NCBI GenBank assembly: GCA_033065855.1
Contig: JAVXUO010000181.1
Location: forward strand, 99,797 to 163,796
Length of the DNA stretch: 64,000 bases
Reading direction: 5' to 3'
Source of the DNA: Escallonia rubra
Lineage: Eukaryota > Streptophyta > Magnoliopsida > Escalloniales > Escalloniaceae
Made by a program: the position numbers and the translations under genes. The notes beneath the pieces are model-generated. The model did not search any database. It saw only the letters and a list, made by a program, of their open reading frames with translations, and was not told the DNA's origin. Below are positions 23,604 to 51,160 of the stretch, in pieces (within the stretch, counting starts at the first letter, position 1; each line of letters opens with the position of its first letter).

Positions 23604-24004
23604 CTAAAACCGTTTTATTTTAGATTTAGATCCAAAAGAACGGCAAAAAAAAAAAAAAAGTTTTATTTGGAATTTAGAATTCCAAGTTCCATTCACCTTC
23701 GAATTGGAGTTGGATTTGAAATTGGCCCGGAGAATTGTAATTCTGCTGTTTAGAGTGTGTTCCCAACCCATCTTGGTCAGACCCAATGGCCCGCTAGGGG
23801 TCCCACTACGCGCGAACACGTCAACATTGTCAACGGTCAATTTTCCAGCGCATCAAACCGGTCAGTGCCCGCACACCCAAGACACGTGTTCTTCTCGCTT
23901 CACGTGCTTCGTGCGCGACTTAGACATTTTATTTTTATTTTGCATTGACGTCACTCGCGCTAGCGCAATCGTCACACCAAGATCACCCAAACACCTTACC
24001 AAAA

Positions 24005-24880
24005 ATGTCGACCGACGGCGCAACCGGAGCAACAGGGTCAACGGGCAAAGGCCTTGGCCAACCCCATGGGGTCGGCCTCGGCCTCACCCAAGACCATGGG
24101 GTCGGCCTCGGCCTCACCCAAGGTCATGGGGTCGGCCTTGGCCTCCCATGGGGGTTTGGCCTTGGCCTTTCCCCCCCGGTTCTTCACTCTTCGCGCAAAG
24201 TCTTTTTTGCACTTTTTTCGCTTTGTACGTTTCGTACATGACTCTGGCACCCTGTTCATCATGTGGGTATGATTCTTGGTAGCATGCTCGTCGCAACACA
24301 ACTTTCGGATTTGTCATTGCTTATCAAAACACCTACCGACGGTGCGCCCGAAGTTCGCAAAAGGAAAAATGGCCTTGGGCTCCGAAAATGGAATTTGGCC
24401 ATTTGGCCTTGGCCAACCTCAGGGGGTCGGCCTCGGCCTTCCCCAGGCCTAGGGGTCGGCCTCGGCCTCCAGGAGGGGTTGGCCTCGGCCATTTTCCCCC
24501 GGTGGTTCACCCCTCCGTGCAAACCCCTTTTTCGCATTCTTTTCGCTTCGTACGCTTTGCGCGTGACTTTGACGCTTCGTTCGTCATATTGATACGATTC
24601 GCATCAACACGCTCGTCGTAACGCAACTTCCGGATTTGCCTTTGCTTATCAAAACACCTACCGTCGGCGCGCCCAAAGTTCACCGAAGGGGGGAGTGGCC
24701 TTGGCCTCCCTTCATGGGAGTTGGCCTTTTACCTTAGCCACCCCCAAGGGGTCGGCCTCGGCCTCACCAAGGGGTTGGCCTCGGCCTCCCCAGGGGTGGT
24801 GGCCTTGGCCTTCCCCCCAATGTTTGGTCTTCCCTCCTGCGCGCACTTGTTTTCCCGAGTCTTTGCACCTCCGCGATGTT
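24005..24880. repeat. Three degenerate tandem units of about 325 bp with GGCCTCGG clusters
   Basis: The word CCGACGG/CCGTCGG marks unit starts at 24012, 24336 and 24661. Each unit opens with GGCC(T)TGG/GGTCGGCCTCGGCCTC clusters, then a cttttt..cgctt..cgtac stretch, then GACTctgGC...ATG(A)TACG, the third copy being incomplete. The short GGTCGGCCTCGGCCTC motif is itself iterated inside the units. Open frames here are by-products of the repetition. Confidence 0.75.
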
Positions 24881-25129
24881 TACGGACGTTCGTACATCAA
24901 CCTTTCGACGTCCGTCGTCCATCAACTTCGCGACGTCTGTCGCCCGGGACCACACGCCGCTCCCGAGATGCCCGTCACCCAAAGTCGCGCGTTACAGCCG
25001 AATGACCCGTCGCCGACGACCGCATACCATCACTCCCAACTTTGTCACTACTACATGTTGCATTCATTATCTTGTTATGACAGGTACACTTAGCTCACAT
25101 CCTGTCTTCAAGACACCCGACGCGCGCCC

Positions 25130-25335
25130 TTACGCCATTCTCATGATACGCGCCTCGGCACCAAATATTGCTCCGCGACGTTCGTCGCCGCGCCCTCGCG
25201 CCATTCTCATGATACGTGCCCCGGCACCAGATATTGCTCCGCGACGTTCGTCGCCGCGCCCTTGCGCCATTCTCATGATACGTGCCCCGGCACCAAGTAT
25301 TGCTTCGCGACGATCGTCGCCGCACCACTTTCACA
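25130..25335. repeat. 66-bp tandem repeat, three copies plus a decayed fourth
   Basis: The word CCATTCTCATGATACG starts at 25135, 25201 and 25267, each followed by GCC(t/c)CGGCACCA, ATATTGCTCCGCGACG and TCGTCGCCGC. It lies inside the LTR relic. Confidence 0.9.
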
Positions 25336-25411
25336 ACACGTGCCCCAGGCACCAGGTATTGTCTCGTGCTATAAGCACCGCGCTCATGCGCCACAATCAT
25401 GTTGCATATTA

Positions 25412-25640
25412 CTGGGATGGGCTCACAACCTTATAGCCATCGCCGTCTCAATCAAAAGGGAGGCTTCGGCCTCGTACCGGGATGGGCTCACAACCTTATA
25501 GTCATCGCCGTCTCAATCAAAATGGGGGCTTCGGCCTCGTACCGGGATGGGCTCACAACCTTATAGCCATCGCCGTCTCAATCACAAGGGGGCTTCGCCC
25601 TCGTACTGGGATGGGCTCACAACCTCATAGCCATCGCCGT
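25412..25640. repeat. 65-bp tandem repeat, four copies
   Basis: GGGATGGGCTCACAACC begins at 25414, 25479, 25543 and 25608. The copies share TTATAGCCATCGCCGTC, ATCA, GGGGCTTCGGCCTCGTAC. They are less diverged from each other than the 325-bp units, so this array is younger. It lies inside the LTR relic. Confidence 0.9.
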
Positions 25641-27412
25641 CACAGTCACAGGGGGCTCCGACACAAGGACCCCTCGCCACAGACTCGGAGCACTGAGCTG
25701 CGACCATGTCCGCTCATGTTACCATCGATCTTCGACACCACCAGGGCAATGACCTCCGGGTCACTCCGGGACGGGAGCAGGTCCTTGGAGGGCATCGCGC
25801 CTAGTCCGCCTGACAGTTGGCTACAGGGGTAACCCTCACCACTGTCAGGTTATCTGCGCGTCTCTTGACGCACCTCATGGGATTCAGTAAGGGCTTGGAT
25901 TGGTGGCTGGGGCAACGGGTTTACTCTGACCATGCCGTCATGGTATGGTCAGTCTTCTCAGACAGGCAGAGCGACGCTGTGCGAGGCAGGCAACGCGAAT
26001 TTGAGAACCGGCAGTCCAACGGAGAACCGGTATTTTGGGACCCCCTGGTGATGTGTCACTCCCAGGGGACGACACGTGGCACTTTATGACATAAGCACCC
26101 TGTTTCCTATAAATAGTGAACTTTACAACTCAAAAAGGGACTTTTGGCTTTTCTTACAAAAATCACTTTCTCACTCTAGAATTTGGGAGCTCTTGGATTC
26201 TAGTGAGAGAAATGTAACTTTGGACCGTAACTTCGGACCGTAGCATTGGACCTCGACTTGGACTATCGACTGCCGGCCCTATTCGTCTTAGCTTTGCCTT
26301 CGCAGCACTGCCATTCCTCACGGCCCGTCTGAGAAGCCTTGCCCTCAGCCCTTACTCCGTCTTTGCTGTCTCCCGCTTTGCATACTTGGAAGCTGATACG
26401 GGCTGTAGCCTTTGTGGCACCTCCACGTAAGTACGAACCCATTTTCTTTGGCATCAGAGTGTTTATCTGAATCTCGAATTAAGGGAAGTATGGATTATTA
26501 TATAACACTATGTTATCTCATATGGTCGTGATCATTGATTCTAAATAATGCAATGTTTTCTACAAGTTTGAAGTCCCTTGCCCTGTCCACATAGCTTAAG
26601 AAACTTTGAAAATTTTTATTCTAGATAAAAAAACATGATTCTCTATAATAGCCCATTTTTGTCTCGAGGAGGTCTGACTCAATCACAACATCACGATCAC
26701 ACCCCTGATAAGGAAATTATATCTCAGCGCCTGTTAGCCAACCTTATCAAAGTGAATGGCTCCCTGTTAACCATAATTATAAGATCAAAAAAGATTTATA
26801 TATATGTAGCTTTATGTTCACCATACGTAGACAGTTTATTTTCACGTTCATTAACCTGTAAAATTCAAATCCCAACATCAAATATAAAAACAAGTAAATT
26901 GCAAATAACCCCTTGACTTTTGCAACTTTGTCTCACTTAACACCCTATGATTCAATTGTGTCATGTACCACCCTAACGTTTATAAAATCGTTACAATTGA
27001 ATCCAAAATCGTATTTCTGTTAAATAAAGAAAAAGGTGGACGGAAATTCTCATGTGCCCCTCCCCTCGCGTGATTGTTTTGGAGGGGCGAACGTGTAAAC
27101 ACATAGATTTTCGTCTTCTTTTACTTTCCCAAATCCAATCCCAACCACCACTTACCCACCATACCACGATTCCAATCTGCTCTTCCACCTACCCTTTTTT
27201 TAGAAGATTTTTTCATTGAACAAATCCTAGCACAAATTCCCCATAATCCCCAAAAACCTAAACATTCTAAGACAAACCACCACCAACTCACCTTACCCCC
27301 ACCACCACACCCTTCTCTTTCACCCAAATTCACACACTAACCCAAATTTGCCACCGTCGCTTAAATTTATGAGGTGTGTGAGGTGGTGGGTGACGGAGGA
27401 TGTGGGGCAAGG

Positions 27413-35700: not shown

Positions 35701-38700
35701 AAGTCTCCACAGCCATGTGTCACGGACTCATTGTGTGGGCATCTAGTGCAGGGGTGCACATGGGAAATATAGGCATTGGACCACACAACGTGCCTGGCGT
35801 GTAATGCCACAGCCTAATGAACTGGCTTTGCACCGATCCTAACATCACCCACGCATTGGGGGATCTATTGGGAAAAGGGCCTGGGAGCCTCATTTAGTTA
35901 TAGTCGGCTGCTTCTGCATGAGAGGGTCCACGACACACGTCTCTTCCATAGAGCTGCCTGATGTTTTCTCCCCAGCCGTTAGTTTTTGGATCCAAATAAC
36001 TTTTGCTTACCCATCCAGTACTCTTCTGACCCTACTGTCTTCGAACCTACGTACCTTTTTGGCTTCATTGTGCTACTTCAATTTTCTACAATACAGAAAC
36101 ACTTCAGACAAATTTGGTTGTTTCGATCACATTCTAACTGGTTTTAGTCATCTATGAGAACTAAAACCAATCAGTCATGTTGACCATCACAAAAGGAATT
36201 TCTAATGATTTTCCTGTAAGATGGACACTAATCTGCCTTAGATAATATAGTTATATATCTTAAATACTCAGCCCAAACTGGCAAGTAGACAACTCCTCAT
36301 ACTGAATACGTGGGTGTACAATGATATTAACGAACACAGTACCATTTGGCGTGGCACATGATGAACATATAAAGTACCTACGAGGAAGTACACCAAAATT
36401 AGAGAAGTGGAAGAACACTGTGCCTATGTGTATAATAAAAAATATGACTAGATTGGTGTTCATTTAGCTGTAGAGGAGGAAACCAATGACTACAGTGTTG
36501 TTGGTGTGAAGCTACTTAATATAGCTATATGATTGAGCTGACAACTACTCAAAAAAATTCTAACTCCTATATTCCCAGAAACAAGAGAAAGTGGGTCAAC
36601 GACTATGTTGCAATCACTATCTGATCACTCTAGTGTATGGTGAGCATGAATTACATGGGAGGGTACGTGTATTTGCGCAGATGTAAGGGTAACCAAAAAA
36701 ACTATGTATATATGTATATATCCATATTTAAAATGCAAAGTGCTAGCAAAACCTAAGTGTGGGAACAGCTAACCTGGACAGTTAGAGACTTGATTACTTC
36801 CTTTGCAGCTTTGCATTTTGCAGCTTCATCTTCTGCTAATGCAGTGGCTTCCTTCAATTCCCTTGATTTTCTTTCTAGTTCAGCCTCAAGAAGTTGAGAT
36901 TTGCTCGCAAGATCTTCTACCTACACTTGTGCATGAAACCTCAACTAAGCAATGTTTCCATCTCCTTAATCCAATTATGGAGAAGTCAAGCATAATGTGG
37001 GTTTTACTAATGTAAATGTGGACTTGCGGTAAAACATCTGATTCCACTGTACCAGTAACCGATATTACAATGCTTTGAACATGACACAAAACCACTAAGC
37101 CCTAGAAGATAGATGACTAATCAACTCATAGACAGAAGTAAAAGCCCTTTATATCTACATGATAGTATAATCTCTAACGCCCAAGCCCTAATTCACGATG
37201 CTCACAAAGGAAGTTTGCCAGAAAACCAGAATAGAATGTCCAAAGATGAAAAGAGCAAATGCCACTGGATGCAATACTGTGCCATTGATTGTTGTTGTGA
37301 CCGCCAATGTGCAAAGGAACTAAAAAAACCTAGGCTCTTAAACTGACTACGACCGGGCAGCTATAAATTTACAAGAAAAATGAGGAAATAGCAATTAATT
37401 AATATCAATCCAACGCTACATACGGCACATTAAGAATTTAAAGAAGAAACATGGAAGAATGGGGGTGGCCTAGTGCCCGTCCCCTGAGGCCCCTGCCATT
37501 GCGGGGTTGAGGAGGATTGTGAAGCAGCCTTACCCCCTCTATGTGGTGAAGCTGTTCCACACAAGAAGCAACTATAGAGTTAGGAAACGAGCTCCGAATA
37601 TATTCAGATGTAAAGTTCTCCAAATTTGCACGCCAACGTTTCATAGCAGTTAATGACAACTAATTTTCAAATTGGGGACACCTCTAAACCTTTAGAATCT
37701 TAAACAGGCTTGGCAGCAGCCTCAGAACCGTCTAAGTTCAGAATAACTGATTCTTCACGAATCACATTTTCGGAGAAATGGTTTAAAAGTGCCACTCTAC
37801 AGTGGAAAATCTACAAGGTTTTACGAATCCAGTAGCTAAGAAAACACTGCATCCTAGAAGAGAAAAGATTAAGGCAGTGGAAGGGATAATGCATCCTTTG
37901 TTCGAGCATTTAAAGGTTTATCAACTATGCAACATGCTAGTGCTCAGCAGTAAAAGTAAACAAAAGATTGTATATTATGGAAATAAAGTGATTATGTTGA
38001 ATGAAACAACTTCTGCAGATAAGCTTACCTGCGCCTTTAAATATACGATCTCCTGGCTTAGACTTTCATTGTTATGCTTTGGATCATAAATAGCCAATTC
38101 TGCTGTAGATAGAGCACGGGTTGGTGTAGGGGTTGCAGATAGAGGTGGACTTGATTTTGCCGAAACGGGAGATATGGCCCGAGAAATCATTCTGGAATTA
38201 GGAGCAGAAGCTGAATGGACATGCTTTGAAGATCCAAACATGGCAGTTGGTGGTTTTGACCAAGAAAAACTTCCCCTCTGGATATTTCCATTTACATTGG
38301 GGAAAAGACGGCCATCATTAGTATCTGTTTTTCCGGTGAGTGTGGAACTTCTGCCTTCAGGCGGATTCAGCGAGTCAGCAGACGAGAGTCTGGAAAATTG
38401 TCCTTGGAATCGACCCCCAGCCTCTTTTTCTGCCAAGTCACCGGATTTATAAAGCATATTCCCACTTCTAACTTTGGAAACTCGCCCAACAGATCCAGAA
38501 TCCATGGCCTTCTGTAGCTTGGTAAAACAATCATCACAGACACGATATGGCTTGCTCGTACTTGGGGCCAACGATGCTTTCAGGGATTTCCTAGTGCTGC
38601 ATACTTTGCAGAAAACAAGCCCGCAATTATAACAATTGTGACGTTTTCTTCTAAAATTAAATGGATTATGACAACCGGAGCACACAGAATTATCAGCAGT

Positions 38701-41700
38701 AGATACCCATCTATGAAGACATATAACAGCTGTAAAATTTGAACCACATACTACACTCTTTACTTGCTTATCTTTCAAAAAATCGACAAGAGTAGGCATA
38801 TGTCGGTCTTCATTATCTCCATGGCCCAGTTGCCCATTTGCACCCTTTCCCCAGGTATAAACCTCTTTGTTCGAAGTCAAGACTGCGGCATGATGGGAAC
38901 CACAGGCAATTTCTTCAACAGAAATGTCAGCAATTTTACCTTCAATACAATTGGGAATCTTCCCATCAGCTAGAGGACTCCCCAGCTGTCCGTAATCAGG
39001 ACTACCCATTGTATATACTCGTCCTGTGGTTGTGAGCCCGATGGTTAGGTTATGCCCGCAGGCTACCTGAGAGAAACTTGTATCAATCAATGCAGCTATG
39101 CGCTTGGGAACTAGCCTATTTTCCTTATCACAATGACCAAGCCGGCCTTTGTCCCCATCACCCCAGGTGAACAAATTTTTCGATGAAGCAACATCAGATG
39201 GTCCAGAATCTGAAGATTTGTTTGGTACTTCAACAACTGCGGCGGTGTGCCAAACGCCACAAGCAACCCTCACTGTCCGCATTTCTTTCAATGCGTCCAC
39301 TTCTCTTGGGGTACCAAGGCTACTATGATCTCCATGGCCCAAGGCTCCAAAAGTTCCATCTCCAAACGTAAACAATTGGCCTAGAGATGTTATAAAAGCT
39401 GTATGCCAAGGTCCACAAGAGACAAATGATACATGTATACCTTCCATGAATCCAATAATTTTCTTTGGTATCCAATGACTGACTTCACTTCCATGGCCAA
39501 GCATACCAGAGTTGTGAGCGCCATCACCCCAAGTGTACAGATCTCCAGAAAGTGTAACAGCACATGTATGATACTCTCCACATGCCACCGTTTCAATGTT
39601 CATGCCACTGAGAGTGTCGATGAGCTTTGGGTGGGAAACATCTGCTCCAATTCCGTGCCCAAGCCTGCCTCCTGAATCCTCTCCCCAACTGAATAGCTCC
39701 CCTTGTTTGCTGACTAACACAGCATGCCTACTACCGCAAGCAATACTATGAACGTCAAGTACCATGGTCGACTCCAGCGCTTTTGGCAAATAAGCATCCC
39801 TCTTGTCACTAGACGATCTACCAACTCTAAGCACACCACCCCCCAGTACTCCATCACCAATGCCTTCTCCCCAAATGAAGATATCCCCAAGGGCATCAAA
39901 CTCCTCATGACAAGAACCCTGGCTTGATGAACTAACAACACTAGATAAACTAACTCGAACTGTATCAGCTGCAGAACTTCGACCATTTGTGTTGTCTACA
40001 CACACAGGTGATAGTGAGCTCGGTGAATAGGTCACTGGCTCTGCTTGAGAGTAACTTTTGGCAACTGCAGTATATGTAACAATGTCAGCAAATGCTTTTC
40101 CCAATCTGCTCTGAGGAATACCCTCAGCTAGTGGATTATCTCCTTGATCCTGATGTAATTAGGAATAGAAGAGATTAAACATAGAATAGGTGACTGAGGA
40201 ACGGTAAAATGATCACACTACCCCCCCCCCCCGGGCAAGAAAAAAAAAAAGGCAAAAACAAACTTTAAGACATAAGAAGGATGTGTTTTCGACTCACAAA
40301 ATATGCAGTTGGAGCAACTCTTCGACCATGTGGACTATCTGATGATACGCTCTCACATCTTGATTCACTTCTCACTTTGCGGTAGCTACTGCGTGCAATC
40401 AATGCCTTTAAACCAACGAACCAAATCTCAGCTTCATCCTTATCTTTACATATCTGTCCATAGAGAGGTAGTGTTGTCACACAAGGTCAACAAAGACATT
40501 GTTATTGTTAAGATCGTGATCCATCCATAGAGAAGGTAGTGTTATCACACAAGCCAAATCCTGTTTTGTGATTGATCTTCTCAACTTGCACATGGAGTAC
40601 TCATAGAAAAGATTGATTACATCTTCTTTTGGCATTGCTACTGAAGCCCACTTTGGCTCTTAGAGAAAATTAATTAGAAACTTACCAAATCTAAAGATCT
40701 ATCATTATATATGAGAGAAAATGATTGATATTCCTTCTCTGGCCGAGGATACCTCTGGAATATTGCCTGATAAAGAAAGACACTGCTGAATTAGTCAAAT
40801 GTTTGAACTTTGAGTATCGCTATTATACTTTGAGAACAATAAGGCATGCTGAAAACCAAAAGAAAGATACAAGGGCGGCATCAAATGAGTAAATTTAGAA
40901 AGTGAACTCATAGCAGCAATATTGAATGCCTCCTCAACGACGTTCATAGCTGCCAAAACGCAGGTCGACAGGTCGTATAAAGGACTTTCTGAGATCAAAA
41001 TGTAGACCTATTAGACATCTCATAAGACTTTTCGTTACAACGACTAACCTTGTAGTCTATTCCTGGTAAGAACCACCATATTTTGTCCAAAGGTTGGTTT
41101 TCTTCTTTTTTAATAGGTTGAAAGGTGTGCAACACAAGGACTTCCTTAGGGGGTCACTTATCCTATCACCACTCAAAGACTTTCCAGGGGGTCTCTCATA
41201 TCACTCAGGCCCAAGCATGTTTAACTGCGGTGTTCTGATTGTACCCATTGCATAAAATGTATGCTGAATGTTTTCTTCGTCCACCGTGTTGGTTAATAAC
41301 TGTTAAATGTTACTTTTGATAAGTATCTCTTATATCTCGCAAGCCAGGGAGCAACTCATGCCTACATTAGAATCAATAAAAGTTCCTACACCATCCATTT
41401 TTCTGATGTAGTTACTATTATTCGTTTTCTGCACAGTAGTTACTATTTCTCTTTTCCTGTACACCCTGACAGTCAATATATAACTTTAAGCATGCCCAAT
41501 GTTTCTGAGAGGGCATGCTTTCTACAAGTACAGATATTATCCAGAAAATAAGGTTCATATAAACCAGGGTAACTTATAACAAGCTAAGAAGCAGTGTATA
41601 GAAAAGAAAATAAGAGGTGGGAGGACCTTGATTGCTTTACTTCAGGACAAAAGTAAGAAAACTTACAGTACGCTGTCCGGGAATAATCCTTGATACATGA

Positions 41701-44700
41701 CGTAGTTCAAGCTGTTTCTCTTCCTTGCCATAGTACCATATCAGCGTAGACTCATCCTGAAATGTAGCCACAGCACTGGAGAACCTAAGCAAATGGACAC
41801 TGAAAAGATGGAATGCTGTTGTTCCCTAGTTAATGCAACTAGAACGTAGATATGATTTATAAGCAGCATAAAAATCGTCTGTAATCATCGTTTATGGTAT
41901 TTGTAAGAAGGATCGCGAGTGCACCCTTCGTTGCTGAATTGAAACCCTACACTGGTCATTTTGAGGTTGGTTAGGGTGCGGCTTAGAAAGAGCTTCCAGG
42001 GTACCCAAGCATGCCCAGAAGTTGAAGTTGACTCTGTTGTGCCTTATGTGTCCCACTTCAAGGGAGGGACAGATAAAGACGTATATTCCAGGGGTGAGCT
42101 CCTCCTGCGCATAATGCAGCCTCATATTTTTCCTTTAGCCTTCTTTTTCTGGTCCAAGGAGGAGTTTTTCAGGACAGATGTGGCCTTTGAGGGCTCTGGT
42201 GAAGATATTATCAATCAGGAATATCTGTATTTTTCTTTGTTCTTTTCCTTGCAGATGCTCGGTGATCCCGTTTCTGAGTAGTGGTTGCGGAGGGTCCGAT
42301 GCTTGCTAAGTTGAGAAGAAGTGCATCAAGGATGGAATTACAGACTATCAGATTGAGAAGATCAGGTTAAACAGAGATGGAGCTTGGTGACTTGGCAACT
42401 GAAGAAAATTCAGGAGAACTTGGTGACTTCTATGATGATGCTAGTTGGAGGCTCGTTTATGGAGGGTATAACCTGTGATGGAGCAATTAGGCAACTGAAG
42501 AAAATTCAGGAGAACTTGGTGACTTCTATGATGATGCTAGTTGGAGGCTCGTTTGTGGAGGGTATAACCTGTGATAGTGTGATGTAAAGAAGCTTCAGAA
42601 GTATGGAGACGCTTAGATGATATGGGTCTGGATTGATTGACTGAGGGTGCTAAGACTTTTAGTACTAAAAAAAAATGCTTGATGAGAGTGGAAAAACATA
42701 TACATCTAACAATAAACGAGTTTTTAACTTGCACCAACAATAGGGGGATTAAGCTTACAAGTCATACTATAAAGCTTTGGAAGAGGGTAGTTGAGCATGT
42801 ACATTACAGAATCAGCTTGATTGTCTCAGAGATCACTACGAAGGCTCGTTTCTTAATTTGGCGATCAACGACGAAATTAGTGGAAAAAGAAGTATTTTAT
42901 ATGGTCTTTATAAATATAAAAAGAATATGACAGACTACCAACGAAAGTTACGAGGTTGGGTCTCTAGAAAGAAGTAGTTACTAAGTAAGTCCATGCGACT
43001 ATGGTTCATAATGATGAGCTGCATAAGGTCAATTGATCAGAGTAGAATGAGGGTTGATCTAGAGTTGGATTAATTATTAAGTACTTTAGTATCCAAGAGC
43101 TTTAGAGGGTGTTTGGGATTCACTCTAGAATGGTCAGACCTGATTAGATCCAAATTAAATCAGGTTTAAAATGTTTGGCAAAAAAAAGAAAAAAACAAAG
43201 CTGATTAAATCTGCTCTAATGTGCTCAAAACTGATTAAATCCATAATCCTGATTTTCTTGGATTCTGATTTAATCAATTTTGGAGAATCAGGTTTGACCT
43301 TACCTATAAAGAAACACTAGATGCCCGAATTTTCAATATATTATATGGTAATTTTAACACAACAAACCTACTTTCATCCCTCTTTAGCCTAGGATACGGG
43401 GATATGTCATTTCTAAAAATTACAAGATATGGGTGCGGCAGGGATACGACAAATATCATAATTTACATATAAATAAATATGTGTGTGTTTGTGTGAATAC
43501 ACACATACATATATGTATATATGTACATGTGAAAAAGTAACATTTGAGAGTTTGTTAAGTTTAATGGGCTGTTCATAAATATTGAAATTGCATAGCTAAG
43601 TTTGTTTGCGTATTACTGTTTTTTCTTTGAAGTATTGGGGTTAATTTTGTAATAAGTTAATAAGTGGATACTTAAATAAAATAGCAAATCGAATCCAGCC
43701 GTCAAAAAACCACTCAACATCAACCAGGTTTCTCCTCTTCTCTGGAATCACAGCCCAAGTTCTATTGCTGCTGCAGCCTTGGGTCGCCGCACGCCTCACG
43801 CTGCCGCCCCGTTGGGTCCCAGGTTCTATCTTCTTCTTCTCCTCCTCCTCCTCCTTCTAACTTTCTCTCTTTCTCATCACTCTCCTACGAGATCTCTCTT
43901 GGGTGGTCGCCGGAGTCGCTGATGGTTGCCGGGGTGGCTACTTCGTCGCCCCTGCTCTCTCTCTCTCTCGGTCTCTCCAGTCTCCCCTCTTCGCAGATCT
44001 GCCCTCAAAATATCTCAACTATAAGTTTTGTTACTTATGATTTGACCCCTAAAACTTCTGTTTTATGTTTTGACCCCCAAAGATTCTTTTGAAAACTATG
44101 TTTTCACACCATAAGTGTTCAATATGCACCCAATCCGTATCCTATCTGCACCTGGTATTCGAGAAATAAAAAAATAAAAAAAACAGATATGCACCCGACA
44201 TGCACTTGCACCCGAGGCCCACCCGATGTCGGTGCTTCACTCTGTTTGGAGCACCTGTGCTTTAGAGCCTTGAAAAACTTTTAATCTAGGGTTAATTACT
44301 CACGGCACCCCTGAGGTTTACCCTAAATTACACACGAACCCCCCTATCTTTTGAAAATTACACTCCGCACCCCCAGGTTTGTACCCGCATTTCACGGAGC
44401 CCCACAAAATTGACGGGGACCCTAACTCCGTCTAAAGATTCCCTAACACCTTACTTTTTTATTTTTTCATCCCCAAACTACCCTCCCTTTCTTGAATAAA
44501 ACCCCCCTTTGCCCTTTAGGTTTTTCTTCTTCTTCTGTTATATCTTTTTTTTTTAACTTTTACCAACAGTGATGTTGTACAGCCAACAATGCATGTTGTA
44601 CAACCAAAACTTCACACTGTACAACCAATAATGCAGGAACAAATGGGATTGCTGGCTGCTCTCATTTCACACATCACCATCCATCACCGCCAGGGACACC

Positions 44701-47700
44701 TTCCGACACACCTCCGGCGACATCCCGGTGACCATGCCGACATCACCCACTGCCCTTGCGTATCTACTCATCACGCCGATCCGGCCACCACGCCGGCCTC
44801 TACCTCCCAACGAAAACCACCCACCCAAGACCCACACCGCCAGCAACACCCACTGTCCCTGCCAATCAACTATCCTCATCACCACGACCCACCACCACTG
44901 GCCACCACCTCCCCACGAAGATAAACTACGACCACCCACAACCACACCGGCGCACCCAAGGCCGCCAACCTCACCAAGGGCCATTACAGGCGACACCTTT
45001 GGTTGCCTAAATCAGTCGCCCACCTAGTACCCATCCACAACCGACACCGGCACACCGACAACCACAGCGGCAACCGATCCCCGTTCCCAAGGGCTACAAA
45101 ACATACATATACAATCTTGCACGCCGAGGATAGCCAACGAGTTAGGTAGAGTTGACTCGTCGATCTCGTTCATTTTCTTCTTCGACTCGTCCGTCTTGCG
45201 TTCGTCCTGAGCCACCTCAGCTTGCATTTTCGTCTCCACTGCCTCCGACTCCTTCGCGTCGGCACTCCTGCCGTATCTCACCGCCTGATTTCGCCGAAAC
45301 GGCGGCGCACGAGCAGGTAAAGACTTAGGCAGAGTCGACTCGTCGGCCTCGTTCCGTTTGTCCTGAATCTGCATTCCCATCGGCTCCCGCTCGCTAACCT
45401 CAGCACTCCTGCCGTCTCTCACCTCTTGATACCGGCGATTCAGCCGAAAAGATGGGGTGCGTGTAGGTATCGACTTAGGGCGAGCCAACTCGTCGGCCTC
45501 GTGCAGCATGTCTTGAAATTTCGGCCCCACCTGCTCTGGCTTGCTCGAACCGGCATTCCGGCTGTTCTTCACCGGTTGATGTCGGTGAGTGCTCGAATCC
45601 GGCGTCGTGCGATTGGAGGAGGAGTTGGGGACACTGGTCACTCCGTCATCGTTCATCTTTTGCTGCTGCTGGAGCCATCTTGAAATTTATACAAGGGCAT
45701 AAATGTCTTTTTATGTCCAGCCATTAACACCGTTAAAGAAAGTTAGATTTTAGGAGCGGAGTGTAATTTACAAAGATAGGCGGGTCCGCGTGTAATTTAG
45801 GGCAAACCTCAGGGGTGCCGTGAGTAATTAACCCTTTAATCTATTATGCTTAAAATATATTAAAGTTGATTCTAAAAACTGATCCTAATTTAATCAAAAT
45901 CTACTTTTGAGAATCAATCTCAAACGGCCTCTTAGATTGACATAGTACATAGCTTAGGTAAATATGGGTGGGCAGGAGGTATGTAAGTGTAACAAATACT
46001 CTTTTGCAACAACTAGGACCAACGATGCATACTGAATGTGATGGACATTGTTGGACCCATTCTCTAACAACTCAAGCTGTTAGAGCAGATAATAACTAAA
46101 CATGGCACAAAAAAGCTTGTTTGCCAAGGCCTTGGGTTCAAGCCTTGCAGCTTTCAGACGGTCCTCCATATTCGGTTAATTGCCTCACCTGGTGGCGGTG
46201 ATCTGTTTTCCTCTTCACATGCAAATGGGTGGATTTGGTTTTGGAGGGGGGCTGTTAAAATTGTTTGGCCAAACCTCTAATATCTTAAGCATAATGCTCG
46301 CGATATTCAATATCAAATCTAAGTGAAAACTTCATAGGACAATCATGAGGCTTGCTCCGGTTCAGAACTTTGGTAAGACGTGCATAGTGTAGGTGATATG
46401 GAACACTTCGTGAATGAGGGCTCACAAGAAAGGATAGAGAAAGAAACGGTGATAATCAGCAAAAAGGTGGAGGTGGCAACGATGTGAGAAGAACTTGTAA
46501 GACCGAGATGGTACGGAAAAATGCTCCCGTACAAAAAAGAGACTTCTTGATGAGGTAAGCAAGGTAGGAGAAGATTGATTTAGAGAGGATGATGTTGCCA
46601 ACCAACTACTTTCTAAATCAAATTTCCATACAAGTATGGCGATTCTCATCACTTTTTGTCATCGCTTTACCAGGAAGAAAATCTTCCTTAACCTTAGTCA
46701 AGAATGACACCAATTGTAGCAACATACGTTTGTATATGCCCAATTATTTAGCATCAATTGCATGCATGCTATAGGACCCAGAAGAGGAAAAAAATGTAGT
46801 GAAACACCGATTTTAAACTTGTTGTTACTCTATGAAAATAGAGACAGTCCATGGTAAGCATTTCGAAGTGCTAACTCCATGGATATTTGGTGGTTGTTGC
46901 TCACAAATGATGAGAAAAACCGGCCTCCTTTACTTCTATTTTCCCCCCTTATAAACATGCCAATTACTACATTTGGAGAGTCTTGTGTGTCTTTTAAACC
47001 ATTTCGGTCAAGCTTAGATTCCTCCCTAGCGGCTTCTTTAGACATTGTTTTGACGGATGGTCATTGAGAATTTGGGCCAACGACAGTAAAGGGAATTTTA
47101 AAAGCTTATTTTTACAAGGCAGTAGTACCACTAGACAACAACCAATAAATATAGGACTTAAGTTGTTTTCCTTCAAACAAGCGAAAAGGATAAAGATCAT
47201 CCCAAAATTGCTATGAACACATTTTTTTCCAGTGTTACATAACACTCCCATAGCATGCATGCATCAATCGCATGCATGCTATGGGACCCAGAAGAGGAAA
47301 AAAATGTAGTGAAACACCGATTTTAAACTTGTTGTTACTCTATGAAAATAGAGACAGTCCATGGTAAGCATTTCGAAGTGCTAACTCCATGGATATTTGG
47401 TGGTTGTTGCTCACAAATGATGAGAAAAACCGGCCTCCTTTACCTCTATTTTCCCCCCTTATAAACATGCCAATTACTACATTTGGAGAGTCTTGTGTGT
47501 CTTGTAAACCATTTCGGTCAAGCTTAGATTCCTCCCTAGCGGCTTCTTTAGACATTGTTTTGACGGATGTTTATTGAGAATTTGGGCCAACGACAGTAAA
47601 GGGAATTTTAAAAGCTTATTTTTACAAGGCAGTAGTACCACTAGACAACAACCAATAAATATAGGACTTAAGTTGTTTTCCTTCAAACAAGCGAAAAGGA

Positions 47701-49144
47701 TAAAGATCATCCCAAAATTGCTATGAACACATTTTTTTCCAGTGTTACATAACACTCCCATAGCATGCATGCATCAATCGCATGCATGCTATGGGACCCA
47801 GAAGAGGAAAAAAATGTAGTGAAACACCGATTTTAAACTTGTTGTTACTCTATGAAAATAGAGACAGTCCATGGTAAGCATTTCGAAGTGCTAACTCCAT
47901 GGATATTTGGTGGTTGTTGCTCACAAATGATGAGAAAAACCGGCCTCCTTTACTTCTATTTTCCCCCCTTATAAACATGCCAATTACTACATTTGGAGAG
48001 TCTTGTGTGTCTTGTAAACCATTTCGGTCAAGCTTAGATTCCTCCCTAGCGGCTTCTTTAGACATTGTTTTGATGGATGTTCATTGAGAATTTGGGCCAA
48101 CGACAGTAAAGGGAATTTTAAAAGCTTATTTTTACAAGGCAGTAGTACCACTAGACAACAACCAATAAATATAGGACTTAAGTTGTTTTCCTTCAAACAA
48201 GCGAAAAGGATAAAGATCATCCCAAAATTGCTATGAACACATTTTTTTCCAGTGTTACATAACACTCAATGCAACTTACAGTAGAAAGTCGAAATGGGCA
48301 GAACTTTGGCTTCCCTCTGCGGCCGTACTTCAGCAAATATGCCCCTTTCTTAAGGGCTGTAATGGCCTGCATATTATATTAAAGCAGGAAAAAAAAAACT
48401 ACAGCATAAGATTCAGTTCTCCATTCAAGAGCATTAATTGCAGTGAAATGAGTCCAATACTTCCAATCATATCCTCTGCTCCCCCACCCCCCAACACGCA
48501 CGCACACACACACACAAGAACAAGTGTTTCTCTAGTCATACTTGATTAACATATAATCCATGGCTGTCAAGAAAATGCAAAAGTGGTGATCATAGTGATT
48601 TTGCAGGTGAAATGAGAATGCTTATACATGTCTTGTATTATGCAAAATAACAAACCAGGATAGCATTAAATTACCAAATATGCTGCTGTTATAATACATA
48701 TACACACCATAATCTGATTTCTCGTGTATGAACTTCAAGAGAGCTCAATAGTGGCATTAACACTAAACTTAAAACTAACTTTAGAGCAAAAGGGCGGCCA
48801 GGGGAACGAGATCACAATCAAATACTAATCTCCTTCAGGGCTTCCCCCATGACAGGTGTCTAGGGAGGGTTTTTGTATGCAGCCTTTCCTGCACTTACGT
48901 GGAGAGACTGTTTTCGTTTTTCAAACACGTTACCTCCATGTCGTGGTGGAGCAACCTAACCGTTGCGCTCAGGCTCATCCTCTACTTGAAACTAACTCTA
49001 TTCCTTTGTTTACGTAGTTACCTATTCGGACGCATATAATCACCAGACGAGTAAGATTATCTGCGTGGTGTGTGAGATGCACGAAATCGTATGTACCTGG
49101 TCCGTGTCCCTTTCTCCGAGACCAACCCTCTGCAAATCAGCCAT
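32746..49144 (-). CDS. PRAF: PRAF-type protein: PH, RCC1 repeats, FYVE finger, coiled coil, BRX; nine exons
   Basis: Minus-strand coding exons are 49097-49144, 48280-48366, 41667-41756, 40686-40766, 40298-40453, 38029-40149, 36774-36920, 33206-33498 and 32746-32839. Every junction is GT-AG, and the join is open for 1038 residues, close to the roughly 1100 usual for the family. Exon 1 encodes MADLQRVGLGERDTDQ. The PH domain covers about 17-130 (LKKGAYLLKYGRRGKPKF...DEAEIWFVGLKALI). RCC1 repeats run about 240-632 (CGSRHAVLV, GRLGHG, CGEYHTCAV). The FYVE finger covers about 634-700 with eight cysteines and the plant-type RKRHNCYNCG core. A coiled coil spans about 850-910. BRX ends the protein (GVYVTLSSLPSGGHELRRVRF, RKRFTEQQAEKWWAEN). 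The family binds phosphoinositides and has RCC1-like exchange activity on small GTPases in vitro, at endomembranes. The second intron (about 6.5 kb) is swollen by insertions. Confidence 0.95.
33499..36773. other. PRAF intron before the BRX-encoding exon
   Basis: This 3.3 kb intron holds a CCACC-rich block (34090-34300) and short unrecognised frames: 34827-35027 minus strand, with HPPHPRRVTNALQ, and 35514-35804 plus strand. The latter two may be pieces of an unidentified insertion or pseudogene, but I see no domain. A GGGA/GGGAG purine tract lies at 33640-33665. Confidence 0.45.
37442..37565 (-). mobile_element. 5'-truncated Au-type SINE in a PRAF intron
   Basis: On the minus strand the block reads GGAACAGCTTC, GGGGGTAAGGCTGC, then CCCCGCAATGGCAGGGGCCT and GGGCACTAGGCC near the end. 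This matches the 3' half of the plant Au SINE (…GGGTAAGGCTGCGTACA…GACCCCGC…GGGCTGCCC). The tRNA-derived promoter half is missing. It is in the same orientation as PRAF. Confidence 0.65.
40219..40232. repeat. Poly-C run next to a poly-A run in a PRAF intron
   Basis: A run of 13-14 C is followed within ten bases by a run of 11 A (about 40240-40250). It is likely length-variable. Confidence 0.7.
41120..41290 (-). mobile_element. 5S rRNA-derived relic, probably from a Cassandra-type TRIM
   Basis: On the minus strand the segment reads ATCAGAACACCGCAGTTAAA, CATGCTTGGGC, GAGTGATA, CCCCCTGGAAAGTC, then a second GAGTGgTGATAGGAT, AGTGACCCCCTAAGGAAGTC and CTTGTGTTGCAC. This tracks plant 5S rRNA (ATCAGAACTCCGAAGTTAAG, CGTGCTTGGGCGAGAGTAGT, GTGACCTCCTGGGAAGTCCT, CGTGTTGCACC) through the box A/C control region to the 3' end. 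Cassandra TRIMs carry such 5S sequence in their LTRs; an ordinary 5S pseudogene is the alternative. It is diverged and carries an internal partial duplication, so it is an old fossil. It lies in a PRAF intron, same strand. Confidence 0.65.
42394..42585. repeat. 96-bp tandem duplication in PRAF intron 2
   Basis: GGCAACTGAAGAAAATTCAG begins at 42394 and again at 42490. The two 96-bp copies are nearly identical (a handful of differences), so the duplication is recent. On the plus strand both copies are open and in the same frame. Confidence 0.9.
42640..42965 (+). mobile_element. LINE reverse-transcriptase remnant (RTE-like)
   Basis: The plus-strand frame 42637-42930 reads NNRGIKLTSHTIKLWKRVVE, then ISLIVSE, and ends FYMVFINIKRI. 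This parallels the reverse-transcriptase block of plant RTE-type LINEs (NYRGIKLMSHTMKLWERVIE ... HMVFIDLEKAYDRVPR). Shortly after, in another frame, DRLPT-like sequence continues the same domain, so at least one frameshift is present. Only the finger/palm part of the domain survives. The element is dead and antisense to PRAF. Confidence 0.7.
44289..45834. mobile_element. Mutator-like non-autonomous element with perfect 9-bp target duplication
   Basis: Both ends start GGGTTAATTACTCACGGCAC and stay alike for about 79 bp (roughly 90% by eye). TTTAATCTA flanks the element on both sides (44280-44288 and 45835-45843), an intact 9-bp target duplication typical of Mutator-like elements. The intact duplication suggests a moderately recent insertion. 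The 1546-bp interior is GC-richer than its surroundings and holds a 210-codon frame (45024-45656, minus). No MURA-type transposase is seen, so it would depend on a partner. The plan (long TIRs around gene-like DNA) is that of a Pack-MULE, but the donor gene is not identified. Confidence 0.8.
45024..45656 (-). CDS. Frame of 210 codons with internal repeats inside the Mutator-like element
   Basis: The frame begins MNDDGVTSVPNSSSNR and is hydrophilic and low in cysteine until its end. It contains two and a half imperfect repeats of about 50 residues. Repeat one has HEADELARPKSIPTRTPSFR then RDGRSAEVSEREPM. Repeat two has NEADESTLPKSLPARAPPFR then RYGRSADAKESEAV. The last half-repeat has NEIDESTLPNSLA. 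The last 35 residues (CMFCSPWERGSVAAVVVGVP) differ in style and may be read-out into unrelated DNA. I do not recognise a family. It may be a captured host gene fragment or element-specific sequence; whether it is transcribed is unknown. Confidence 0.35.
   Translation of the reverse strand: MNDDGVTSVPNSSSNRTTPDSSTHRHQPVKNSRNAGSSKPEQVGPKFQDMLHEADELARPKSIPTRTPSFRLNRRYQEVRDGRSAEVSEREPMGMQIQDKRNEADESTLPKSLPARAPPFRRNQAVRYGRSADAKESEAVETKMQAEVAQDERKTDESKKKMNEIDESTLPNSLAILGVQDCICMFCSPWERGSVAAVVVGVPVSVVDGY
46040..46262. mobile_element. TRIM-like retroelement relic in PRAF intron 2
   Basis: The phrase TTGGACCCATTCTCTAACAA, followed by 'aagctgttagagcagataataact', then a GCTTGTTTGCCAAGGCCTTG GGTTCAAGC block and CTCTTCACATGCAAATGGG, matches the plan seen at 6435-6780 and in many plant genomes. 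It is decayed and non-coding. Family naming is tentative. Confidence 0.35.
46757..48267. repeat. Three near-identical 510-bp tandem units with palindromic junctions
   Basis: Units begin about 46757, 47267 and 47777 and repeat at exactly 510 bp (for example, the same frame recurs at 46830, 47340 and 47850). Only a few single-base differences separate them. Each junction reads CCCATAGCATGCATGC, a 7-bp spacer ATCAATC, then GCATGCATGCTATGGG, so each unit has 16-bp inverted termini. The last unit lacks its closing arm and stops at 48267, 13 bp from the splice donor of PRAF exon 2 (48280). The unit could be a tandemly amplified inverted-repeat element. Open frames of 60-97 codons inside are shared by all copies and show no domain. 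Confidence 0.9.
48499..48516. repeat. CA microsatellite in PRAF intron 1
   Basis: A run of (CA)n with an imperfect ACGC start, preceded by a C-rich patch. A second CA run of similar length lies at 51894-51912. Confidence 0.8.
48788..48985 (-). mobile_element. Au-type SINE, near full length, in PRAF intron 1
   Basis: On the minus strand the element opens GATGAGCCTGAGCGCAACGG (box A-like), followed by TTAGGTTGCTCC, ACATGGAGGTAACGTGTTTG (degenerate box B), then GCAGGAAAGGCTGCATACAA, and it closes GCCGCCCTTTT. This is the known order of the plant Au SINE. It is about 198 bp, normal length, in PRAF sense orientation. The box B is worn, so it is probably inactive. Confidence 0.75.
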
Positions 49145-49984: not shown

Positions 49985-51160
49985 CATTGTCTGAATCGGA
50001 CTTCCCCTGTTTGCAAATAAAAGTCCAAAAAGTGAAAAGATAAAGAAAGCCTGGCCCACTTCTTTTTGGGCTTTTATGGTCACAGTGTCGTATCAACCTG
50101 ACAGCTTTTTGACGCTCTTTTTGACCCTCTAAAACAAAATTCCCCTCTATGACTATGCCCATACATCTTATCTTAAAGGGTGAATTTTTGCTGTTGATAT
50201 ATAAGTTGATGGTGATTGTCGAGTCTCACGTACACGGTAGAGGTTCTTATACTTGGTGATTTTTTTCGGCTCTTAAAAATATTAGATTGAATACCAGACT
50301 TTAACATGATATCAAATCTAGATTACACTCGTGCCTGATGGTCTTTAAGTTGCTACATTGTTGCGCTTTTATTCAAATTGAGTCTTGAGAACACGTCATA
50401 TTGCATAATATGTGTTAAGTCTACATTGACTGTACATAGAGATTGAAATACACAAGTCTACATCGACTGTACATAGAGATTGAAATACACGAACACTAGA
50501 CTTTAAAGGTGATATTACAAAGTTTTTTTGCAAGGGCCTACACATGGACTATGACAAAGAGGCGCCATTTTTTGGTATGTTTTCTAATAAGCGCTTGTCA
50601 AATATGTCTAAAAGTTCAGCGTTAATGTACAAGTTACATTGACTTGGTTTCGTATAAGGCCTAACTCACAAGTAAATAGGTTTCCAAAATGAGCTCAAAA
50701 AATGGAGGAGTTAATATGGGCTCATTCACTTTAAAGAATTAATCATTTGGTACAAGGAACAAAATATTCAGTGGCCAAAACTATTGCGTTGTATGGATTA
50801 ATGGCCCAAACTATGTAAAACTATGGGATGAGGGGAAGCTAATGCGATAGGAGTAAGAGGTAAGGCAGAAAGAGGGTTTTGTATTACGATTGAAGCCAGA
50901 GGCATAAGACAATACACCGATGTAACTCAAGAGATCCAGTCAGGGCATGTCTCGAGTGTCAACCTTGTCGAATTAATAGCGGGAGCTTGACTCTTCTTAA
51001 ACCTCCCATGAAATTGCATTAACACTAACTGATGTTCCTGTCACAAACTCTCGTAAACTCACATGAATGCTTCTCATGCTGAAAAGTTGAAACTGCTCAT
51101 ATGGTCACATGAAGTATGTGGCAACTCTAGTAATATAGAGCTTACACTCCTCTACACCTA
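49985..51160. other. Gene-free stretch between PRAF and HVA22
   Basis: No gene is seen. A 36-bp direct repeat, each copy holding ACTGTACATAGAGATTGAAA, occurs twice between 50420 and 50492. Confidence 0.5.

Follow-up and report, generated by a model that had tools for sequence, protein, structure and literature searches.

The window analysed here, a stretch of 64,000 nt from Escallonia rubra, carries on its minus strand a PRAF-like gene, the exons of which we placed by eye from their translations. PRAF proteins combine PH, RCC1 and FYVE domains, and the label that the first-pass annotation had given to this gene is backed by the RCC1 repeats and the FYVE domain of the large exon within an open frame at 37978..40158. 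Exon 2 (AITALKKGAYLLKYGRRGKPKFCPFRLST; 48280..48366) shows nothing but a PH-like match below the Pfam cut-off (E 0.0099; 16 bits vs 29), and an 85% identical paralogous exon was found for it. Because exon 3 begins at 41756, intron 2 (41757..48279) should span about 6.5 kb. It opens with the GTAAGT donor of exon 2 (48279-48274, minus strand), which is intact and lies outside the repeated unit described below. A protein-level paralogue search returned 22 matches, one being the PRAF-like gene of the window itself and 16 being short; the five long ones, all elsewhere, cover 467-710 query residues at 51-59% protein identity. For the one paralogous exon 2 that was found, the start of the adjoining intron, inspected by eye, nowhere resembles the unit, and the paralogue is therefore no guide to the pre-duplication state.

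The second intron of the PRAF-like gene carries a real tandem array, which we confirm with small coordinate corrections. Both a period-510 self comparison and a repeat finder place three head-to-tail copies at an exact 510-bp period at 46751-48267. The 1,517 bp comprise three 497-bp copies (46751..47247, 47261..47757 and 47771..48267) and, between them, two 13-bp fillers of the same sequence, CCATAGCATGCAT (47248..47260 and 47758..47770), each the reverse complement of part of the adjoining unit start. The homology begins with GCATCAAT at 46751, 6 bases ahead of where the first-pass annotation had set it, and finishes at 48267; in the phase of that annotation, the units run from 46757-47266 (u1), 47267-47776 (u2) and 47777-48267 (u3). 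Its description of three near-identical units at an exact 510-bp period was borne out by a base-by-base alignment, in which only seven columns vary (unit positions 3, 17, 178, 238, 298, 304 and 306), all of them by substitution and none by an indel. The first unit differs from both others at positions 3, 17, 238 and 304, whereas private differences are found at positions 178 and 306 in u2 and at 298 in u3, giving pairwise counts of 6/510 (u1-u2), 5/491 (u1-u3) and 3/491 (u2-u3). Substitution rates in plants are put at 6.5e-9 per site per year, with a slower figure of 2.6e-9. The divergence of the units would then correspond to about 0.5-0.9 million or about 1.2-2.3 million years, respectively, an age that is to be read as an order of magnitude only because there are so few changes.

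Stop-to-stop frames of at least 100 aa lying within the array are lacking (one of 111 aa, at 48214-48549, starts within its last 54 bases), and no Rfam family scored above threshold in the 64-kb window. The motif CATGCATG, which we take to be the RY seed-promoter motif, has five occurrences within the array and two in the rest of the window; TATAAA is present once per unit. Every unit also carries a small perfect hairpin, GTGTTA-CA-TAACAC, at its right end (47232-47245, and again at +510 and +1020), located 2 bases ahead of the filler or, in copy 3, 2 bases ahead of the end of the array.

Copy 3 meets the flank of the exon 2 donor directly, without a filler. The last copy had been described as stopping 13 bp from the splice donor; it does end just inside the intron, but the gap consists of 12 intron bases (48268-48279), which separate the array from exon 2, whose minus-strand end is 48280. 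In total, the array accounts for about 23% of intron 2, which is about 1.0 kb longer for the two extra copies. The first-pass annotation had proposed that the position of the array could affect splicing or intron length; a scan of the array on the gene's strand found no GTRAGT sites, and the array is presumably removed by splicing along with the intron. Further tandem repeats exist in the window. The same intron harbors a second tandem duplication at 42394-42575 (96-bp unit, 1.9 copies, 98% match), the first copy of which closes, as judged by eye, with about 10 bp (GGAGCAATTA) that are missing from the end of the second and that may represent another filler. Upstream of exon 2 in gene direction, a 37-bp unit is repeated twice (50417-50490; 97% match), and a GC-rich block at 24050-25657 (58% GC in 24001-26000) consists of nested tandem repeats that include GGCCTCGGCC-type units as well as units of 65-66 bp and 325 bp.

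What distinguishes the joins between the copies? Filler and neighbouring bases together make up a perfect hairpin at each internal join, with 17-bp arms, a 7-bp loop and a total length of 41 bp (47246..47286 between copies 1 and 2; 47756..47796 between copies 2 and 3), and filler and hairpin do not differ between the two joins. This agrees with an earlier description of the joins as palindromes with a 7-bp spacer, except that the arms measure 17 bp instead of 16 and the whole structure 41 bp instead of 39. When the 64 kb were scanned for perfect hairpins (loop 3-11, arms of at least 11), the two junctions emerged as the longest and the sole other hit had 11-bp arms, so that the junction hairpins are not a product of chance. 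The fold of the first junction has a free energy of -20.4 kcal/mol (z = -8.6). The left edge of the array has one unpartnered arm, which departs from the joins at 2 bases (T for C and A for G); filler and hairpin are both missing from the right edge. Since the left edge of u1 lacks the palindrome and u3 lacks a closing filler, the palindromes are confined to the two internal joins. At unit position 17, the base paired by the filler arm is G, but copy 1 carries an A, which fits a later change in copy 1.

How is the unit distributed across the genome? Our searches covered the 566-Mb assembly with its 3,222 contigs. Matches to the whole unit (3/3), to its first half (3/3) and to its second half (3/3) all fell at the array locus, as did those to the junction 26-mer (2/2), the left-end 24-mer (3/3) and the right-end 23-mer (2/2), each with up to 3 mismatches, and to a terminus pattern in which the hairpin arm is spaced to the subterminal motif (4/4). 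With up to one mismatch allowed, 10 matches to the 17-mer arm were obtained, namely 5 at the array and 5 elsewhere with one mismatch each. At these five sites, likeness to the unit is restricted to 17-20 bp without wider homology, the remaining unit matches in the surrounding 3-kb loci being 12-27 bp long (E of at least 1.4); four of the five seem to belong to one unrelated repeat, as their flanks are, by eye, alike and unlike the unit. As a control for sensitivity, a query from the left flank, for which 40 of 219 candidates were scored, produced at least 67 matches; at least 66 lay away from the locus, with identities of 76-89% across about 45-113 bp. The dispersed repeat responsible for these off-locus matches is unclassified, lies about 600 bp left of the array (46045-46156) and has two or more nearby matches on many contigs. 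Searching for single copies by unit and by termini thus led to the array locus only, bar the five one-mismatch 17-mers, and neither the unit nor its ends turned up a second time in the 566 Mb, where strongly diverged relatives could be missed. A mobile-element family was discarded on these grounds, that is, from the unit, half-unit, terminus, junction and end-pattern searches combined. Within the sensitivity of the searches, the lack of any dispersed copy of unit or termini, an outcome that the first-pass annotation itself had named as speaking against its proposal, weakens the original description of a single inverted-repeat element. The head-to-tail, high-identity copies at a single locus, with the unit absent elsewhere at the sensitivity reached, support the accompanying idea of local tandem amplification rather than transposition.

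Together, we consider it reasonably probable that a single-copy 497-bp segment of the intron was tandemly triplicated on the spot and that the joins are a scar of snap-back microhomology end joining. In the first event, the DNA would break near 46751, next to the alternating, self-complementary run GCATGCATGC, and free a bottom-strand 3′ end (...AATTGATGC), which could fold back on GCATGCATGC using its terminal GC as a 2-nt primer and copy its own strand for about 15 nt (ATGCATGCTATGGGA). The extended end would then join the other boundary (GAGTGTTATG) via a 2-bp GA match. Fold-back copying and GA join would amount to microhomology end joining with a snap-back templated insertion of the polymerase theta type, presumably by that enzyme, and the outcome would be two copies with a hairpin scar in between. 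The third copy and the second, identical join could have been added by unequal exchange or slippage across the 510-bp homology.

Several details of the edges bear on this proposal. As expected of a snap-back scar, the 13-bp filler repeats the start of the adjacent unit in reverse complement. In bottom-strand orientation, copy 1 shows ...GCATGCAATTGATGC at its left edge and continues into unrelated flank; in the join, this GATGC leads into ATGCATGCTATGGGA, after which comes GTGTTA, and the right edge of copy 3 reads TTGAGTGTTA. Copy 1, at its left edge, and the joins are identical exactly up to the would-be primer GC, and the far side has the GA match. Support from these primer matches, a GC where copying begins and a GA where it ends, is weak because each comprises just 2 bp, expected about once in 16 cases by chance. 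The snap-back explanation also takes as chance a 12-bp subterminal inverted block, whose halves are located in copy 1 at 46786..46797 (GGAAAAAAATGT) and 47219..47230 (ACATTTTTTTCC) and recur in copies 2 and 3. Explaining the array requires no function. With respect to the palindrome, the first-pass annotation had proposed that it drove the amplification. That the amplification was tandem and local stands, but the palindrome is missing at both outer edges and cause and effect may be reversed: as it is absent there and depends on a 13-bp filler present only at the joins, the palindrome looks like a product of the first duplication. The hairpin is thus more likely to be a scar of repair than a mobile-element terminus or a driver of amplification, and it may have aided later expansion of the array.

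The main rival account, which we regard as rather unlikely, would start from a lone, non-autonomous inverted-repeat transposon, a MITE-like element with the terminal repeat CATGCATGCTATGGGA that inserted in the intron, generated the 9-bp target duplication CATCAATTG (a length typical of Mutator-like elements), was later tandemly amplified across its target duplications and lost its right terminus through a deletion of about 18 bp. Such an element would explain why 17-bp inverted arms occur together with the 12-bp subterminal inverted block (GGAAAAAAATGT). In control comparisons, subterminal inverted matches of 12 or 11 bp were seen in 0/6,090 overlapping windows of the 64 kb and matches of 10 bp in 24; none of 33 control windows with A7 or T7 at both ends had a 12-bp match, and in a first test the block was equalled in 0/634 windows and 1/2,000 shuffles. 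As the unit ends share a 12-bp inverted motif unmatched in control windows, a lone inverted-repeat relic is conceivable. However, an element with perfect 17-bp ends, which imply youth, should have relatives, and the transposon reading is weakened by the fact that the 566 Mb yielded neither a second copy nor a related terminus, and hence none of the dispersed related copies that are characteristic of MITEs. In addition, the left edge of the array lacks its partner arm, and no stop-to-stop frame of at least 100 aa is contained in the array. As to terminal inverted repeats, the picture is mixed: 17-bp arms that are complete at the joins only and the 12-bp subterminal block on one side, incomplete outer edges on the other. 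Inside the outer 17 bp, the unit ends score 53 in a permissive gapped alignment, compared with a mean of 56 and a maximum of 78 for 300 shuffles; long inner terminal repeats were accordingly dropped as no better than shuffled sequence, though the exact 12-mer is unusual. A target duplication has some sequence to point to, in that every unit has CATCAATT/C ahead of it and the right flank looks like a damaged copy of this sequence. Since this flank (AATGCAAC) resembles the left-edge sequence CAATTGCA, it might be a remnant of such a duplication; an equal prefix match exists at 2.3% of 21,300 window positions, and a looser test was matched by 7.4% of 5,000 random 14-mers. Tandem MITE arrays, moreover, have a precedent in corals (PMC2872659). 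A hybrid history is possible, too, in which an old inverted-repeat relic was subsequently duplicated by break repair. Helitron ends and a geminivirus-like circle were dropped after inspection by eye for their end and loop motifs.

Could all copies have been made at once? In a one-step, replication-based amplification, whether by fork stalling and template switching or from a rolling 510-bp circle, the hairpin would derive from an inverted template switch. We consider this improbable, notwithstanding that both array edges are located at the hairpin and that the private differences of u1, u2 and u3 (4, 2 and 1, with most u1 polarities unsettled) allow a simultaneous origin. The identity of the two joins over filler and hairpin would follow from a single event, yet is equally expected if a second duplication copied the first join. 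That one or two real copies were merely expanded by the assembler seems very improbable: while the array is known only from an assembly, one in 3,222 contigs, each unit has private substitutions (seven columns in total, without indels), and at both outer edges the sequence departs from that of the joins. Equally slim, in our estimate, are the chances of a more elaborate scenario, wherein the unit would be the only survivor of an unknown inverted-repeat element, the join hairpins would promote growth to a satellite-like array and copy number would tune the PRAF gene.

How does the favoured snap-back triplication compare with known systems? Tandem duplications in plants are reportedly the subject of Vaughn and Bennetzen 2014 and of Schiml et al. 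2016, and the study of mutagen-induced polymerase theta deletion scars is said to have used C. elegans. As far as the cited passages of the latter study go, snap-back insertions are reverse-complement copies of the flank and constitute a minor part of polymerase theta scars (PMC5068794). The array resembles them in its reverse-complement filler from the flank, started by very short pairing; those scars, however, belong to mutagen-induced deletions, whereas here the scar would sit at the join of a tandem duplication (PMC5068794). In the cited parts of a study on polymerase theta in Arabidopsis, one 97-bp duplication is tabulated and the phrase 'tandem duplication' is absent (PMC12231562). For the transposon alternative, the nearest parallel is provided by the coral MITEs, whose tandem units are likewise bounded by inverted repeats and are ascribed, in the passages cited, probably to replication slippage and not to independent transposition (PMC2872659). 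The coral families, in contrast, occur in many sequences and have TTAA target duplications, while the present array occupies one locus and has no TTAA.

Structurally, the array is of the same kind as the grape GCE and the maize b1 repeats, a tidy and fairly ordinary structural variant. According to the passages cited, the GCE of the VvmybA1 promoter is a 408-bp non-coding repeat, present head-to-tail in 2, 3 or 5 copies and confined to the colour-locus VvmybA genes, and expression rises with its copy number (PMC7464560). Both are locus-specific segments repeated head-to-tail beside a gene, and the ends of the GCE share 3-bp microhomology (PMC7464560). Unlike the GCE, a perfect repeat in a promoter, our array is imperfect, intronic and known from sequence alone, and its hairpin joins have no counterpart in those passages on the GCE, which make no mention of inverted or palindromic sequence (PMC7464560). 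At maize b1, the sources' cited portions describe 853-bp repeats that lie about 100 kb upstream, number seven in B′ and B-I but one in neutral alleles, and are required for high expression and paramutation (PMC3798267). These, too, are tandem repeats of a sequence unique to one genomic location, but seven distant, upstream regulatory copies there stand against three intronic copies here, which we know solely as assembled DNA (PMC3798267).

What, then, can be learned from this intron? The array is a clean example of a young tandem repeat arising from single-copy DNA, and its join may preserve a trace of the event behind the first duplication. At two plant loci, grape VvmybA1 (PMC7464560) and maize b1 (PMC3798267), unique tandem repeats of similar size alter expression, according to the passages cited, and copy-number variation of the array in the PRAF-like gene could therefore merit genotyping.
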